Shown piece after piece: positions 51,387 to 59,590 of a stretch of 64,000 bases of DNA (within the stretch, counting starts at the first letter, position 1; each line of letters begins with the position of its first letter). This DNA comes from Cryptosporangium arvum DSM 44712 (GTDB lineage Bacteria > Actinomycetota > Actinomycetes > Mycobacteriales > Cryptosporangiaceae), in the NCBI RefSeq assembly GCF_000585375.1, contig NZ_KK073874.1, positions 4,402,001 to 4,466,000 on the forward strand, written 5' to 3'. The notes beneath the pieces are model-generated. The model saw only the letters and a program-made list of their open reading frames with translations, did no database searches and was not told the origin of the DNA. Position numbers and translations under genes: made by a program.

Positions 51387-53324
51387 ATGCTCGCGAAGTT
51401 GCCGCTCGACAGTCCGCTCTGGCTCGAGTTCGATGCCTCGTTCTCGACCGAACAGGCGCTCGACGCACTCCGTGAGGTGCTGACCCGGCGGCAGCTCGGC
51501 GAGTCGTGGGACGAGCTCCGGTCCGAGCTGCTGCACCAGGGAACCGTGTACGACATCACGTCGGCCGCGATCCCGCACCTGGTCGACCTGGCGCCCGCGC
51601 TGTCGGTCGAGGAACGCGCCGAACTCTGGACCGAGATCGGCTTCTGGGTCACCGCGGGAGCGGACTACTACGAGGGCCCGGTCGCCGACGGCCTCCAGGA
51701 GAGCCTGACCGCGGCGCTCGCGGTGGCCGAGGCCGGCGCGCTCGAGCTGTTCCGCGAACGCGCCGGCCTCGGCGACAGTTACTTCGCGCTCGCGTGCGTG
51801 ACGCTCGCCGGGCACCCGAGCGGCGGCGCGATGTGGTCGTTCCTCTCGCCCGGCGAGGGGTACGTGACGCTGACCTGCCCGACCTGCGAGGAACAGGACG
51901 AGGTGGACGGGTTCGGCGATCCGCTCGGGCCGCCCGGCGCGCCGCCGGCGGTTCCGGACCTGCGTGCGGACGCCCGCGACGTGCCGGGCTGGGCGTCGCT
52001 GGCCGACGAGATCGAGGCCGCGCCCGACCTGTTCGGCCCCGGCTGGGACGGTTTCGCCCGGGTCGCGGTCGCGGTCGCCCGGGCCGGTGTGCCGGAGACG
52101 GCGCCGCCGGCCGCGGTCTGGTGCCTGATCGCGGCGATGGTGGCGCTGCGCGGCGACGTCGCCTGGGCCCGCACGATCACCCGGCTCGCCGGGCACTACC
52201 AGTGCGTGAGCTGCCAGGACGTGTACTCGATCGGGGACCTGATCGCGGAGGACGAGTTCGCCGAGCCGATCGTCCCCGACGGGCTCGACCCGGCGACGTT
52301 CGCCGACGCCGGCGGGTTCCGCCCGGCGCCGGGCGGGTGGCCGGTCGTGGCCGGACCGACCGTCGCGACCCGGTGGCGCGCGTCGACCGGCCCGGTGGAC
52401 ACGCTCACGGTGGCGACGCTGCCGACCGGGCAGTCGATCGTGGCCGGTGTCGGACCGTCGGGTCTGCACCGCTGGGACCTGGGGACCGGGGCGCCGCTGC
52501 CGGTCGCGGCCGGGGGAGCCGTGCGCTCCTCGGCGGTGGTGACGGCACCCGACGGCCGCACCTACGTCGTCGCCGGCGGTGACCGGCTCCACCGCTGGGA
52601 CGCGCTGACCGGCGACCCCCTGCCCGCGCGGCCGGCCGCGGTCCGGGCGCTGGCCCCGGCCGTGATCCCCGCCCCCACGCACGGACGCCACCCGGAGGAC
52701 CCCGGGTGGCTGGCCGGGCTGCGCGACGGCCGGACCGTGCTGGTCACCGGCGAGGAGGACGGTGCGGTGCGGCTGTGGGACCCGCTCACCGCCGAGCCGC
52801 TCGGCGAGCTCTACCGCACCGACGGGATCGGCGCGATGACGTCGGTGCCCGACCGCTCGTTCGGCGACCAGGTCGTCACGCTCTCCGGTGCGCTCACCGT
52901 CGACGTCTGGAGCTCCGCTGCGGTCACCGGCCGGCGCTCCTCGATGGCGCCCCCGGCCACCCGGCTCGCCGCGCTCGGCCACGAGTCGCTCGTCGACGTG
53001 ACCGGCGCGCCCGGCGGGATCCTGCTCGCCGACGCCGGCGGCCTGGTCTCGCTCTGGACGACGTTCGGCGTCCGCCTGGGCGACCCGCTCCCTCCCGACC
53101 CCGGCCACACCGGGGTCGTCGCCGTCGCGGCCGTGACCACCACCGCCGGCCCGCTCGTCGTCGCCACCGCGAGCGCGGCCGACGCGACCCTGCGCCTCTG
53201 GACCCCGTCGACCGGCGGCGTCACGCTCGTCGACCTGGACGCGCCCCCGCGCGCCCTCCACGCCACCGGCCCGCTCCTTCTGGTCGCCACCGACACCGGC
53301 GTGCTCGCGCTAACCCTCGAGTAG
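51387..53324 (+). CDS. Large hypothetical protein with helical N-terminus and propeller-like C-terminus
   Basis: The 645-residue product has a helical N-terminal half with the LLHQGTVYDITSAAIPHLVDLA motif, a CPTCEEQ zinc-binding-like pair and a second CVSCQD pair in the middle (about residues 170 and 274). The C-terminal half, from about 340, has repeated GLHRWDLGTG, RLHRWDALTG, AVRLWDPLTA and TLRLWTPSTGG units, a degenerate beta-propeller of WD40 type. No signal peptide. Such proteins may be scaffolds. I recognise no named family for the whole. It overlaps the opposed acyltransferase gene by 15 bases. Confidence 0.75.
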   Translation: MLAKLPLDSPLWLEFDASFSTEQALDALREVLTRRQLGESWDELRSELLHQGTVYDITSAAIPHLVDLAPALSVEERAELWTEIGFWVTAGADYYEGPVADGLQESLTAALAVAEAGALELFRERAGLGDSYFALACVTLAGHPSGGAMWSFLSPGEGYVTLTCPTCEEQDEVDGFGDPLGPPGAPPAVPDLRADARDVPGWASLADEIEAAPDLFGPGWDGFARVAVAVARAGVPETAPPAAVWCLIAAMVALRGDVAWARTITRLAGHYQCVSCQDVYSIGDLIAEDEFAEPIVPDGLDPATFADAGGFRPAPGGWPVVAGPTVATRWRASTGPVDTLTVATLPTGQSIVAGVGPSGLHRWDLGTGAPLPVAAGGAVRSSAVVTAPDGRTYVVAGGDRLHRWDALTGDPLPARPAAVRALAPAVIPAPTHGRHPEDPGWLAGLRDGRTVLVTGEEDGAVRLWDPLTAEPLGELYRTDGIGAMTSVPDRSFGDQVVTLSGALTVDVWSSAAVTGRRSSMAPPATRLAALGHESLVDVTGAPGGILLADAGGLVSLWTTFGVRLGDPLPPDPGHTGVVAVAAVTTTAGPLVVATASAADATLRLWTPSTGGVTLVDLDAPPRALHATGPLLLVATDTGVLALTLE

Positions 53325-55040
53325 CGCGGTGAGTTCACGCACCGCGACGCCGAGCTGCGCGGCGAACGCGGCCATGCCGTCCTCCACCGCGCGAGGCGTG
53401 CTGAGGTGGATCGCCACCCGGTCCGGCAGCAGCACGTAGCCGACGCCGATGCACGTGCTGCTCGTCGACCCGAACCCGAAGTAGTCGATCGACGTCGACG
53501 GAGCCGAGCTCGTGCTCAGGTAGTCGTCGCGCATGATCAGCCAGCCGGGCGTGGAGAACAGGGCGGGCTCGGTGTCGACGCCGAGCTCGGCGCCGCGCCG
53601 CCGCTGGATCAGCTGCAGCTCCCAGAGGTGCTGCTCCGGGGCCCGCCCGAGCCGGCACTCCGTCGCCCGCCGCACGTGGGCCTCGGCCGCCGCACGGAAC
53701 GCGTCGCGCTTCCGGGCGTCCCCGGCGGCCGGATCCTCCATCGTGTCGACGAACGCCACGGCCTCCGGGGTGACCACCCGCATGGCCTCGGTGCGGCCCC
53801 ACTGGTACTGCCGGGTGCCGATCGACTCGTAGGTGGCCCCGGTGACGCCCTTCGCGCGCCGATGGGCCAGCTGATAGGTCATCTGCAGGAACGCGTCCGG
53901 CGACATCCGCAGGCTCTTGGCCCGGTCGGAGCCGAAGTCGGTGAACGTCAGCACGGTCGTCGCGGTGGCCGCGGCGTAGTCGGCGAACGAGGCCGCCGCG
54001 TCGCGCACCGCCGCGCGCTGCGCGTCGTCCAGCGCGAACTCGAGCGGACGCGCGACCGGGACCCCCTGCGGCGTCTCCGCGTAGTCGTCCGGCGCGTAGC
54101 TCAGCACGAAGTCGGTGAACCCGAGGATCGTGGTGCCGTCGAGCTCGCAGTGCTCGACGTTGATCCCGGCCCGGCCGTCGGCGAACACGACGAACGACAC
54201 CGCTTTGTCGAACCAGCGGTTGCCGCTGTCGCCGTGCAGCAGCTGGTCGGCCGCCTCCAGATCGGAGGCCGGCGTCAGGTCCTCCAGGCAGACGCAGAAC
54301 AACGCGCTCTCGACCTCGTCCAGCAACGCCGGGTCCAGGGCCCGCCGGTCGGCCGCCCACTCGGCGCGGGCCTTCGTCGTGAGGTGCCCGACCGGGTACT
54401 CGGTCCGCCGCCCGCCGGCCAGCACCGCGCGCAGACCGGCGGCGATCTCGTCCAGGGTGTGCCCGACGACGTCGAGCCGGTAGATCGTGCCGCGGTGGAG
54501 CACCAGGATGTGCCGGGCCGTGGACGGGCCGTCCCACCCCTTGCCGTACGGCCCGCGGACGGTGTCCTGCACCGCGCCGGGGATCCGCGTGGTCGAGAAC
54601 AGGTACTTGTTCTGCTCCATGGTCTGCGGCACCCCACGCACGACCGCGGGTGGCAGCTCCTCGGCGTCGACCGCCTGTTTGAACGCCAGGGCTCCGGCGA
54701 TGAGCGCGGTCGCCCGCTCCACCTGGCCGAGCGGGGCGTCGCGGAAGAGGAAGAAGAAGTTGGCGTTGAGCGCGATGCGGTCGCGCCGGCCCAGGTAGCG
54801 GTAGGGCCAGAAGGTGTCCAGCCAGCTGTGCACGCCTTCGCTCGCGTCGTACTTCTCCAGCGCGGCGTGGAGCGTGCGCCCGGAGCCGCCCAGGAACTCG
54901 GTCACCGACGCCTCGGTGGCCGCGCGCTGCTCCGCGGTCAGCAGCGGCGCGCACCAGTCCAGGAACCGGGCGCAGCTGTCCTCCAGCGTGGGCAACGGCG
55001 AGCGGGGGAGGTGATCCTCGTTGGCGAAGGTGCGGGTCAC
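53310..55040 (-). CDS. Choline/carnitine O-acyltransferase family protein
   Basis: The 576-residue protein has a full CRAT-type catalytic domain: catalytic His297 in VEHCELDG, YESIGTRQYQWGRTEAMR (the carnitine/CoA-side motif), and a STSS motif near residue 525 in FGFGSTSSTCIG that binds the substrate alcohol. The N-terminus PLPTLEDSCARFLDWCAPLLT also matches. The family moves acyl groups between CoA and the hydroxyl of carnitine or choline. It is rare in bacteria. GTG 55040 has a GGAGAGAG site and overlaps the methyltransferase stop (GTGA). It is the third gene of the oxygenase-methyltransferase-acyltransferase operon. Confidence 0.9.
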   Translation of the reverse strand: MTRTFANEDHLPRSPLPTLEDSCARFLDWCAPLLTAEQRAATEASVTEFLGGSGRTLHAALEKYDASEGVHSWLDTFWPYRYLGRRDRIALNANFFFLFRDAPLGQVERATALIAGALAFKQAVDAEELPPAVVRGVPQTMEQNKYLFSTTRIPGAVQDTVRGPYGKGWDGPSTARHILVLHRGTIYRLDVVGHTLDEIAAGLRAVLAGGRRTEYPVGHLTTKARAEWAADRRALDPALLDEVESALFCVCLEDLTPASDLEAADQLLHGDSGNRWFDKAVSFVVFADGRAGINVEHCELDGTTILGFTDFVLSYAPDDYAETPQGVPVARPLEFALDDAQRAAVRDAAASFADYAAATATTVLTFTDFGSDRAKSLRMSPDAFLQMTYQLAHRRAKGVTGATYESIGTRQYQWGRTEAMRVVTPEAVAFVDTMEDPAAGDARKRDAFRAAAEAHVRRATECRLGRAPEQHLWELQLIQRRRGAELGVDTEPALFSTPGWLIMRDDYLSTSSAPSTSIDYFGFGSTSSTCIGVGYVLLPDRVAIHLSTPRAVEDGMAAFAAQLGVAVRELTALLEG

Positions 55041-55876
55041 GGCTCTCTCCGGGGGCGCGAGATGTGCAGCTGGGCGTAGAACCAACCGTCGGTCTCCCGG
55101 CCGGCTGGGTCGACGCCCAGCTCGGACAGGCGGTCCAGGACGGACGACCGCTCGTCGGCGGTGGCGAACCTCCGCTGCCGGACCGGTTCGCCGATCGGCG
55201 CCGTGTCGTACCCGAGGTCGTCGAGGTGACCGGCGATCGCATCGTAGGGGAACATCCGCAGGCAGTAGTGCGCCATCCACGGCCGACGGTCCCCGGCCGC
55301 GTCGACGATCCGCAGCAGCGTCTTCTCGGTCACGTAGCCGATGCAGCCGGTGGAGATCACCAGGTCGGTGCCGGCGATCCGGGCCCGCTGCGCCTCCTCC
55401 GGTTCACCGGCCTCCAGGTCGGCGTGGACCGCGTCGTCGAGGAAACCGGCGGCGACCGCGTACTCGAGCGCCGGGGCGGACGGGTCCAGTCCGGTGAACC
55501 AGGCCCGCTCCGGCCGGGGACGCGACCGCACGAGCGCCCGGTCGGCGGCCAGCAGCGCGGCGCGGGTCCCGCCGACCGCGGTGTATCGGTCATACAGCTC
55601 GGCGAGCGTGACGTCGCAGCGCAGCAGAGCGGCGTTGACGCCGTACGAGCACCCCAGGTCGAGCACCCTCGGGGTGGCGACGTCCCGCGCGGCGCGGTAC
55701 TCGGCAAACAGGCGGGCGAACCGCGGCGCGGCCACGCCCGGGATGCCGTACTCGAACTCGCGCAGCGTCCGGAAGAACGGCCGCGGGTCGGGACGCGAGT
55801 AGATGTGGTCGAAGGAAACTTTGCCGGTCTCGTCGCTCGTCACCAGCGGAGGCCTCTCAGTCGAGTAACTGGTCAC
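55037..55876 (-). CDS. Class I SAM-dependent methyltransferase
   Basis: The 279-residue protein has a Rossmann-like SAM domain with motif I VLDLGCSYG at residues 71-79, RRxLRCDVTLAELYDRY-type helix and VISTGCIGYVTEKTLLRIV (post-motif region) near residue 175. The N-terminal DETGKVSFDHIYSRPDPRPFF is typical of one actinobacterial subfamily. The methyl acceptor cannot be deduced. GTG 55876 lies inside the end of the oxygenase gene (20-base overlap); GTG 55843 is an alternative. Confidence 0.8.
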   Translation of the reverse strand: MTSYSTERPPLVTSDETGKVSFDHIYSRPDPRPFFRTLREFEYGIPGVAAPRFARLFAEYRAARDVATPRVLDLGCSYGVNAALLRCDVTLAELYDRYTAVGGTRAALLAADRALVRSRPRPERAWFTGLDPSAPALEYAVAAGFLDDAVHADLEAGEPEEAQRARIAGTDLVISTGCIGYVTEKTLLRIVDAAGDRRPWMAHYCLRMFPYDAIAGHLDDLGYDTAPIGEPVRQRRFATADERSSVLDRLSELGVDPAGRETDGWFYAQLHISRPRREP

Positions 55877-56684
55877 CGCGGACGGTCGCGCCGGCCTCGT
55901 GGGCGGCCAGCGTGCGGCCGAAGAGCTGCCGGGTGCGCGCCGCGCTGCCGATGACCCCGGGACGCTCGGTGTAGGAGAAGATCGCGGTGTGCCGTGGCCG
56001 GGTGCCGGTCACCGTGGTCACCCGGTGCATCGCGAACCGCCCGCGGAACAGCTGCAGGTCCCCGGGGCGCAGCGTGAGCCGGCGCGGCGGCCGCCCGCGG
56101 CCCTCGATGACCGCGCGCACGTCGCCGAAGTTCTCGGCCCGGGCGGTGCGGATCTCCGGGCAGTACTCGAACACGCCGCCGCCCTCCGGTGCCTGGGTGA
56201 GCAGGCTGACCGCGAACTCGTTGGTGTCGAAGTGCCACGGATGGCCCCGGCCGGGCGCCACCACGTTCAGGCACAACCCGGCCAGCGGGTCCGCGAGCTC
56301 GTGGATCCGCGGCTTGCCGAAGCAGGCCGCGAGGAAGCGCTGGAAGTCCGCGTCGGTGTAGAGGCGCTGGATGAGCGCGTCGGGCGGGATCAGGTCGCGG
56401 GCGGTGAACGCGTTCTCCCGGCGCATCGGGATGCGCGCCGGGTGGTCGGCGGGCAGCGACTCGTCGAGCGCGATGTTGTAGACGTTCACCGTCTCGACGT
56501 CGTAGTGGGCGAGCGGCGCCACCGACGCGCCCTCGGCCCGCAGGGTCTCGTGCAGCTCCGGCCGGACGAAATCGGGGAGCACGCTGCAGCCGTGCGCGGC
56601 GAGCTCGGCGTGGACCGTGCTGATGACGTCCCGCCAGCTCGCACTGCCGGGTTCGTGCAGGGGATAACGCTCGGTGTCCCACAC
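55857..56684 (-). CDS. Fe(II)/2-oxoglutarate oxygenase of the BesD/HalD family, hydroxylase-type
   Basis: The 275-residue product has the BesD/HalD fold with iron ligands His151 and Asp153 in HPWHFDTNEF and His220 in FAMHRVT. BesD-type lysine halogenases have Gly in place of the Asp, so the Asp here indicates a hydroxylase. The family acts on free amino acids such as lysine, mostly at C3 or C4. GTG 56684 has a GGAGG site and heads the operon; the frame overlaps the methyltransferase gene. Confidence 0.88.
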   Translation of the reverse strand: MWDTERYPLHEPGSASWRDVISTVHAELAAHGCSVLPDFVRPELHETLRAEGASVAPLAHYDVETVNVYNIALDESLPADHPARIPMRRENAFTARDLIPPDALIQRLYTDADFQRFLAACFGKPRIHELADPLAGLCLNVVAPGRGHPWHFDTNEFAVSLLTQAPEGGGVFEYCPEIRTARAENFGDVRAVIEGRGRPPRRLTLRPGDLQLFRGRFAMHRVTTVTGTRPRHTAIFSYTERPGVIGSAARTRQLFGRTLAAHEAGATVRGDQLLD

Positions 56685-58950: not shown

Positions 58951-59590
58951 GGCACGGAGCACGGAGCACGGAGCACGGAGCACGGAGCATGGCGTGGGGC
59001 GGGTCCCGCTGTCGCATGGCCCGAAGCACGGCATGGCACGGCGCGGGACGCGGCACGGCACGGCACGGGGCGAGGCGGCCGGCACGGGGGCGGCACGGCA
59101 CGGTGCGGTGCGACACCGCACGAGGTGGCGCGGCACGGCGCAGCGCGGGGCGGCGCGGCCCGGCACGGCATGGGGCGGTCCGGCACGACACGACACGACA
59201 CGGGGCGGCGCGGGGCGGGGCGGCCCGGCACGGCACGGCACGCGCGGCACGGTGCGGCACGACACGACACGACACGACACGGGGCGGCGCGGTGCGGGGC
59301 GGCGCAGTGCGGCGCGGGGCGGCGCAGTGCGGTGCGGCATGGGGCGGCCCGGCACGGCACGCGCGGTATGGGGCGGCCCGGCACGGCACGCGCGGCATGG
59401 GGCGGCCCGGCACGGCATTCGCGGCATGGGGCGGCATGGGGCGGGGCGGGCCGGCACGGGGCGGCACGACACGACACGGCGCGGGGCGGGGCGGCGCGGC
59501 ACGGGGTGGCGCGGCGCAGCGCGCTGCGGCATGGGGCGGCGGTGCGGGCCGGGGCGGAGGCGGGCGGCGCGGAAGCGGGCACGGTAGTGC
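58951..59590. repeat. Purine-skewed low-complexity repeat island, about 640 bp
   Basis: It begins with five copies of the 7-mer ACGGAGC (58954-58988), followed by irregular GGCACGG, GACACGACAC and GGGGCGGC words for about 600 bp. The plus strand is dominated by G and C with some A and almost no T. All six frames are open for long stretches but encode only Arg/Pro/Ala/His/Cys strings, so I do not call genes here. Confidence 0.75.

Follow-up and report, generated by a model that had tools for sequence, protein, structure and literature searches.

Which compound would a bacterium assemble with a hydroxylase, a methyltransferase and a carnitine-type acyltransferase encoded side by side? The question is raised by a 64,000-nucleotide stretch of the Cryptosporangium arvum DSM 44712 genome (contig NZ_KK073874.1, positions 4,402,001 to 4,466,000; hereafter the window, with coordinates counted from its first nucleotide), in which three consecutive minus-strand genes encode a BesD-fold Fe(II)/2-oxoglutarate hydroxylase (Ox), a class I S-adenosylmethionine (SAM)-dependent methyltransferase (MT) and a carnitine/choline-type O-acyltransferase (CRAT). 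Enzymes of the last type are familiar mainly from eukaryotes, and acylcarnitine chemistry from animal mitochondria. The answer argued for here, to which we give an even chance of being right, is that the operon directs the three-step synthesis of an O-acylated hydroxy-betaine, with MT acting first, Ox second and CRAT last. A preliminary description of this DNA had derived an acylated hydroxy betaine from the same three reactions; the conservation of the unit and the betaine-related context of relatives of its genes speak for such a product, whereas the order proposed at the time, hydroxylation before N-methylation, appears less likely than the reverse.

Gene organization

Ox occupies positions 55857..56684 (275 amino acids, GTG start), MT 55037..55843 (268 amino acids from a GTG at 55843) and CRAT 53310..55040 (576 amino acids), and all three frames proved open on the minus strand as first described. 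The 4-base overlap between MT and CRAT is real, whereas the 20-base overlap reported alongside it between Ox and MT requires an upstream GTG at 55876. In an alignment of orthologues, the GTG at 55843 fits the N-termini better than that at 55876, so that Ox and MT lie 13 bases apart without overlapping; as a sign of coupling, the Ox/MT overlap was dropped, since it depends on the choice of start. At an E-value of 1 or better, no NCBIfam family matched any of the three proteins. The genome, 9.2 Mb in size, contains a single match to PF00755, the Pfam family of CRAT.

Conservation of the trio

Retention of the three genes together in other genomes had been named beforehand as a test of the proposal, and they are indeed kept together. 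Two genome sets were searched, comprising 150 relatives and 246 genomes of the class. Among the relatives, 15 have Ox, 17 have MT and 16 match PF00755, a family also represented in 21 of the class genomes. The distribution is thus patchy, with no PF00755 match in 134 of the 150 relatives, including a member of the window's own genus (G001), or in 225 of the 246 class genomes. Within the 34 CRAT-positive genomes (the union of both sets, three being shared), 29 carry the three genes side by side; the remaining five are G165, G148, G021, G050 and G226. Of these, G148 has Ox and CRAT without an MT match, and G226 a distant CRAT alone. G165 contains two copies of the module (L182 and L184), with Ox, an MT fragment and CRAT together, and MT with CRAT but without Ox elsewhere. 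When 148 class genomes were searched for HalD, the family of Ox, 13 matched, 12 of which are CRAT-positive.

An MT-based scan of named genomes, of which the best 80 of 91 loci were kept, gave the same picture: all three genes are present in 57 of the 59 actinobacterial loci so obtained (L068-L126; Actinomadura, Lentzea, Amycolatopsis, Labedaea and Nocardia), the two exceptions being a locus that ends at a contig edge (L083) and a Labedaea locus with MT only (L078). In total, 140 loci were gathered through matches to individual genes or families of the trio and therefore do not form a random sample; they comprise 89 with all three genes, 43 with MT, two with MT and CRAT, two with CRAT, one each with Ox and CRAT, with Ox, and with Ox and MT (cut by the contig end), and one with none. 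Gene order and strand are identical in all 87 trio loci compared, one of which (L182) has only the MT fragment. Pairwise protein distances of Ox, MT and CRAT correlate with r between 0.931 and 0.938 over 82 loci, a value reached in none of 1000 permutations and to which shared species history contributes. Conserved order and co-inheritance together rule out a chance co-occurrence of the three genes.

The flanking genes group mostly by genus, and the few cross-genus families inspected are broad ones, e.g. a protein kinase (Nocardia, L050), which identifies the trio itself as the conserved unit. In Nocardia (L079-L126, e.g. L081), the trio is mostly located between methionine-synthase-like and protein kinase genes on one side and hisE/hisG-like genes on the other, the kinase being assigned by Pfam and the metH and his names by eye from the sequence. 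These metH-like and hisE/hisG-like neighbours were considered as a hint of SAM or histidine chemistry and given little weight, as they were not seen next to it in the other genera examined.

A hydroxylase without acids at two amine-binding positions

Ox matches the Pfam family HalD (PF23169) above its cut-off (E 6e-12), and structure comparison shows the fold of the BesD group. Ox belongs to this structural group, and the alignment with BesD and a lysine hydroxylase that had been suggested as a check shows the ligand set of a hydroxylase. Residues H151-F152-D153 (56226..56234, minus strand), the iron ligands in the Asp form typical of hydroxylases, the distal iron ligand H220 (56025..56027, minus strand) and the 2-oxoglutarate-binding R231 are conserved in all 90 aligned sequences, an alignment that takes in the window, duplicate contigs and the remote L062. 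The early reading of an HFD motif plus distal histidine, and with it of a hydroxylase rather than a halogenase, is therefore borne out: halogenases carry Gly at the position of Asp153, and halogenase function is ruled out by this residue.

The substrate pocket departs from that of BesD, whose residue numbers follow the 6nie chain. According to an excerpt of PMC13244439, E123 and D143 of BesD form salt bridges to the lysine amine and H137 contacts the lysine carboxylate. The column of E123 is occupied by Leu134 in 90/90 Ox sequences (HMMER and MAFFT; hhalign leaves E123 unpaired) and that of D143 by Thr154 in 89/90, so that neither position offers an acid for a substrate ammonium group; a third ammonium-binding acid of BesD, D239, has no reliable alignment. 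The carboxylate contact may be retained, the H137 column being His148 in 89/90 in both alignments. Of the two other BesD residues that bind the substrate carboxylate, R77 corresponds to Arg89 in 88/90, again in both alignments, within a gapped region, and W241 is unaligned.

An acyltransferase with an altered acceptor site

CRAT belongs to PF00755 (E 1e-152; 509.8 bits against a cut-off of 22.3; profile positions 2-572 of 574) and aligns over most of its length with carnitine acetyltransferase, CPT2 and choline acetyltransferase, its best PDB match being carnitine acetyltransferase 1nm8 (E 1.6e-64). Across 91 bacterial sequences, the window included, the catalytic histidine H297 (54150..54152, minus strand; 322 in the 1nm8 chain) is invariant, as are Tyr404, Thr417 and Phe523, with Tyr404 and Thr417 located at the carnitine carboxylate site. 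We take 1nm8 to be the human enzyme, its numbering agreeing with the human residues of PMC11820905. In an excerpt of this source, Tyr431, Arg497 and Thr444 of human carnitine acetyltransferase hold the carnitine carboxylate. The position of Arg497 is Gln in 90/91 bacterial sequences, among them the window's own CRAT (Q470; 53631..53633, minus strand), and Thr446 is replaced by Ala in 90/91 (A419; 53784..53786, minus strand), whereas CPT2 keeps Arg and Thr in these columns. The "complete" set of acyltransferase motifs of the preliminary description thus holds for EHCELDG, GRTEAMR, STSS and catalysis, and fails at the carnitine site. Since the carboxylate arginine is replaced so consistently, the acceptor is, to judge from the aligned residues, probably a compound other than carnitine.

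The sequence that departs in both columns, L199 of genome G226 (Arg and Cys, respectively), is a distant bacterial CRAT of 27% identity whose stretch lacks Ox and MT; having kept the carnitine arginine, it is perhaps a true carnitine acyltransferase.

A further column is Phe521 in 87/91 sequences (otherwise Trp in two, Leu in one and Ala in one), Met in 1nm8 and Gly in CPT2. This column (543 in the 1nm8 chain, 564 in full numbering) is presumably the site that sets acyl-chain length, a role for which a literature search found no support; if so, Phe521 would point to short acyl groups.

A methyltransferase of an uncharacterised family

As had been noted from the sequence, the second gene contains a SAM motif (VLDLGCSYG). 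Pfam returns only sub-threshold methyltransferase matches for MT, a profile search against the PDB gave nothing convincing, and D62, G68 and D120 are invariant in 36 aligned sequences. The structural model (predicted local distance difference test score 93.5) shows a Rossmann-type class I fold in which motif I is present, strand 2 is followed by an acidic residue, and an additional helical segment separates motif I from the strand after it. MT is therefore a class I enzyme of an uncharacterised family. In structure comparison, many class I methyltransferases ranked equally and no substrate class was favoured; N-methylation is inferred from genome context only. Relatives outside the trio are found in Bradyrhizobium, Nitrobacter, Afipia and other Proteobacteria, and in other Actinomycetota; at 1e-10, MT matches occur in 27 of the 396 genomes searched for the phylum and in 31 of the 298 for the order, the trio genomes included.

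Betaine-related neighbours

In G148, Ox and CRAT adjoin a divergent betaine-type importer, comprising by Pfam an OpuAC binding protein, an ATPase and one permease, with a second permease recognized by similarity to other permeases only. Betaine-importer or betaine-oxygenase-like genes are also present in the stretches of 9 of the 43 MT-only loci. Seven of these encode, within about 4 kb of MT, an OpuAC-type binding protein or a corresponding permease (L133, L135, L138, L260, L262, L266 and, as a permease fragment at the edge only, L272), and two (L270 and L271) have a GbcA relative, below the family cut-off, 1 to 2 kb from MT, accompanied in L271 by a gene scoring above the cut-off for N-methyl-tryptophan oxidase. 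Around the 89 trio loci, neither betaine-importer nor GbcA-like genes were found in the surrounding stretches, which vary in length.

Four proteobacterial loci (L133, L135, L138 and L146) have MT followed directly by a ProV-like ATPase, and the first three also an OpuAC-permease fusion; no such fusion was found in L146, where the stretch is long enough to reach it. The importer genes of L135 and L146 look split over frames. Importers of L133, L135 and L138 are 56-84% identical and may represent one event.

Recurrent neighbours of MT, counted over 20 loci and annotated through one member of each family, include an asparagine synthase (seven loci), an AttM-family lactonase (six), a nitrilase-type hydrolase (six), an acyl-CoA ligase (five) and an iron alcohol dehydrogenase related to the choline dehydrogenase GbsB (five). 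Such genes could have catabolic roles, which speaks against a purely biosynthetic MT. Up to three MT relatives per genome occur in Actinomycetota outside the window's class (L258-L275 except L273), where they recur with the lactonase, dehydrogenase, ligase, asparagine synthase and nitrilase-type hydrolase, and in a few cases with a betaine importer; these gene sets possibly belong to a separate, uncharacterised betaine pathway. One further importer was set aside: an ATPase gene next to the CRAT of G050 fits a phosphonate-type model best, below the cut-off, and the binding protein upstream of it appears iron-type by eye.

A proposed pathway and its alternatives

In the proposed module, MT would use SAM to methylate the nitrogen of an amino-acid-like amine, yielding a quaternary betaine; where MT is missing, the betaine would probably be imported instead. 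Ox, with its fold and iron ligands in place, would then hydroxylate a C-H bond of this carboxylate-bearing betaine. Finally CRAT, by its family and catalytic histidine, would transfer an acyl group, probably a short one, from coenzyme A (CoA) to the new hydroxyl. The acceptor would share with carnitine a hydroxyl close to a quaternary amine, but its acid or polar group would not be held by the usual arginine. Methylation before hydroxylation is made likelier by the lack of acids at the two BesD ammonium positions of Ox and by G148, where Ox and CRAT stand beside an importer and no MT match was found: there, the two enzymes appear to use a betaine, and methylation would hence come first.

Several observations weigh against this pathway. 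The G148 assembly is 91% complete, and an MT gene could be missed. Ox is not always needed: G021 has MT and CRAT with no Ox match in the genome, which shows that relatives of this type obtain the hydroxyl by another route, and G050 has CRAT with neither Ox nor MT. None of the betaine genes searched for were present in 34 of the 43 MT-only loci, whose stretches differ in length, and in other Actinomycetota the betaine genes near MT may serve catabolism, a role harder to reconcile with an MT that produces a betaine. The locus counts are not independent, as many loci are from Nocardia and three trio loci were fetched twice as contigs (L053/L075, L052/L110 and L054/L081). At the level of the enzymes, the identity in the alignment of Ox with BesD is about 14-20%; Asp132 of Ox, which is invariant and lies two positions away from Leu134, could bind the amine instead; and sequence and fold searches take MT no further than the broad class I fold, giving no indication of the methylated atom.

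The last two of these points also favour the best-surviving alternative, in which Ox, like BesD relatives, would start by hydroxylating a free amino acid for acylation by CRAT, and MT would act elsewhere, e.g. on a carboxylate or another atom. The product would then be an acylated hydroxy amino acid derivative that lacks a quaternary amine. BesD-group structures titled as complexes with lysine or ornithine would agree with such a sequence of events, yet the two amine-binding positions of Ox carry no acid, relatives of MT and of Ox with CRAT stand in a betaine-transport context, and the solved structures of the CRAT family bear the names of carnitine or choline acyltransferases. On balance this alternative appears unlikely.

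Somewhat less likely again is the carnitine pathway proper, in which MT would trimethylate 4-aminobutyrate to gamma-butyrobetaine, Ox would act as gamma-butyrobetaine hydroxylase and CRAT would be a true carnitine acyltransferase. Exactly three such steps are required, Tyr404 and Thr417 of the carboxylate site are kept throughout, and betaine-type importers adjoin some relatives; the replacement of Arg497, one of the three carboxylate-holding residues in the excerpt of PMC11820905, and of Thr446 in all but one bacterial CRAT nevertheless speaks against it. A mainly reversed CRAT, with the module scavenging environmental acylated quaternary amines and returning the acyl group to CoA, is improbable, since the methyltransferase normally present in the trio points to synthesis and no importer gene turned up in the stretches around the 89 trio loci, even though reactions of carnitine acyltransferases are reversible and G148 couples Ox and CRAT with an importer.

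A broader and clearly more tentative view is that actinomycetes synthesize de novo, from a single operon, an equivalent of carnitine. This compound would be a hydroxylated amino-acid betaine that has a dedicated acyltransferase and serves as a non-CoA acyl carrier or as an acyl-CoA buffer. The acceptor would be an undescribed one, and CRAT would have been re-tuned to it by loss of the carboxylate arginine.

Other features of the window

A WD40-like gene on the plus strand (51387-53324; WD40 match below the cut-off) converges on CRAT and shares the last 15 bases of its frame (53310-53324). At 58952-59580, about 600 bases consist of degenerate short GC repeats with 5- and 15-base units such as GGCGC, the 15-base unit being present in about 34 copies at 59035-59541; these repeats yield long Pro/Ala/Arg-rich open frames on both strands.

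Relation to known systems and significance

Ox shares its fold, iron histidines and 2-oxoglutarate arginine with the halogenases BesD, HalA, HalB and HalD and with the lysine hydroxylase Hydrox (7jsd), and probably also a carboxylate-binding histidine. It differs from the halogenases in having Asp where they have Gly, from BesD and Hydrox in lacking the acids (Glu and Asp) that serve the substrate amine at two positions, and from the whole group in being partnered by MT and CRAT genes. CRAT, in turn, has most of its length, the catalytic histidine, the STS motif and the acceptor-site Tyr and Thr in common with carnitine acetyltransferase, CPT2 and choline acetyltransferase, whereas its biosynthesis-like operon, the exchanges of Arg497 and Thr446 and Phe521 set it apart. 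Eukaryotic carnitine biosynthesis, which employs trimethyllysine and gamma-butyrobetaine hydroxylases, together with CRAT likewise runs from a methylated amine through 2-oxoglutarate-dependent hydroxylation to O-acylation; here, by contrast, a BesD-group enzyme is the hydroxylase, the genes form one operon and the acceptor site is unlike that for carnitine. Glycine-betaine systems (OpuAC importers, the GbcA monooxygenase) are neighbours of MT or of Ox and CRAT relatives in some lineages, outside the trio.

The component families are thus known. Among the matches listed in a literature search, neither the Ox/MT/CRAT trio nor its altered acceptor site and likely product is described, a weak absence given the poor coverage of subscription papers.

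A carnitine-type acyltransferase is fixed in a conserved bacterial operon of Nocardia, Amycolatopsis, Actinomadura, Lentzea and their relatives. If the proposed pathway is true, these bacteria would make acylated betaines of a new class, and an acyl-carrier or osmolyte chemistry in bacteria would be open to direct testing; the BesD group would also gain members acting on quaternary amines, which would be of use in C-H functionalisation.

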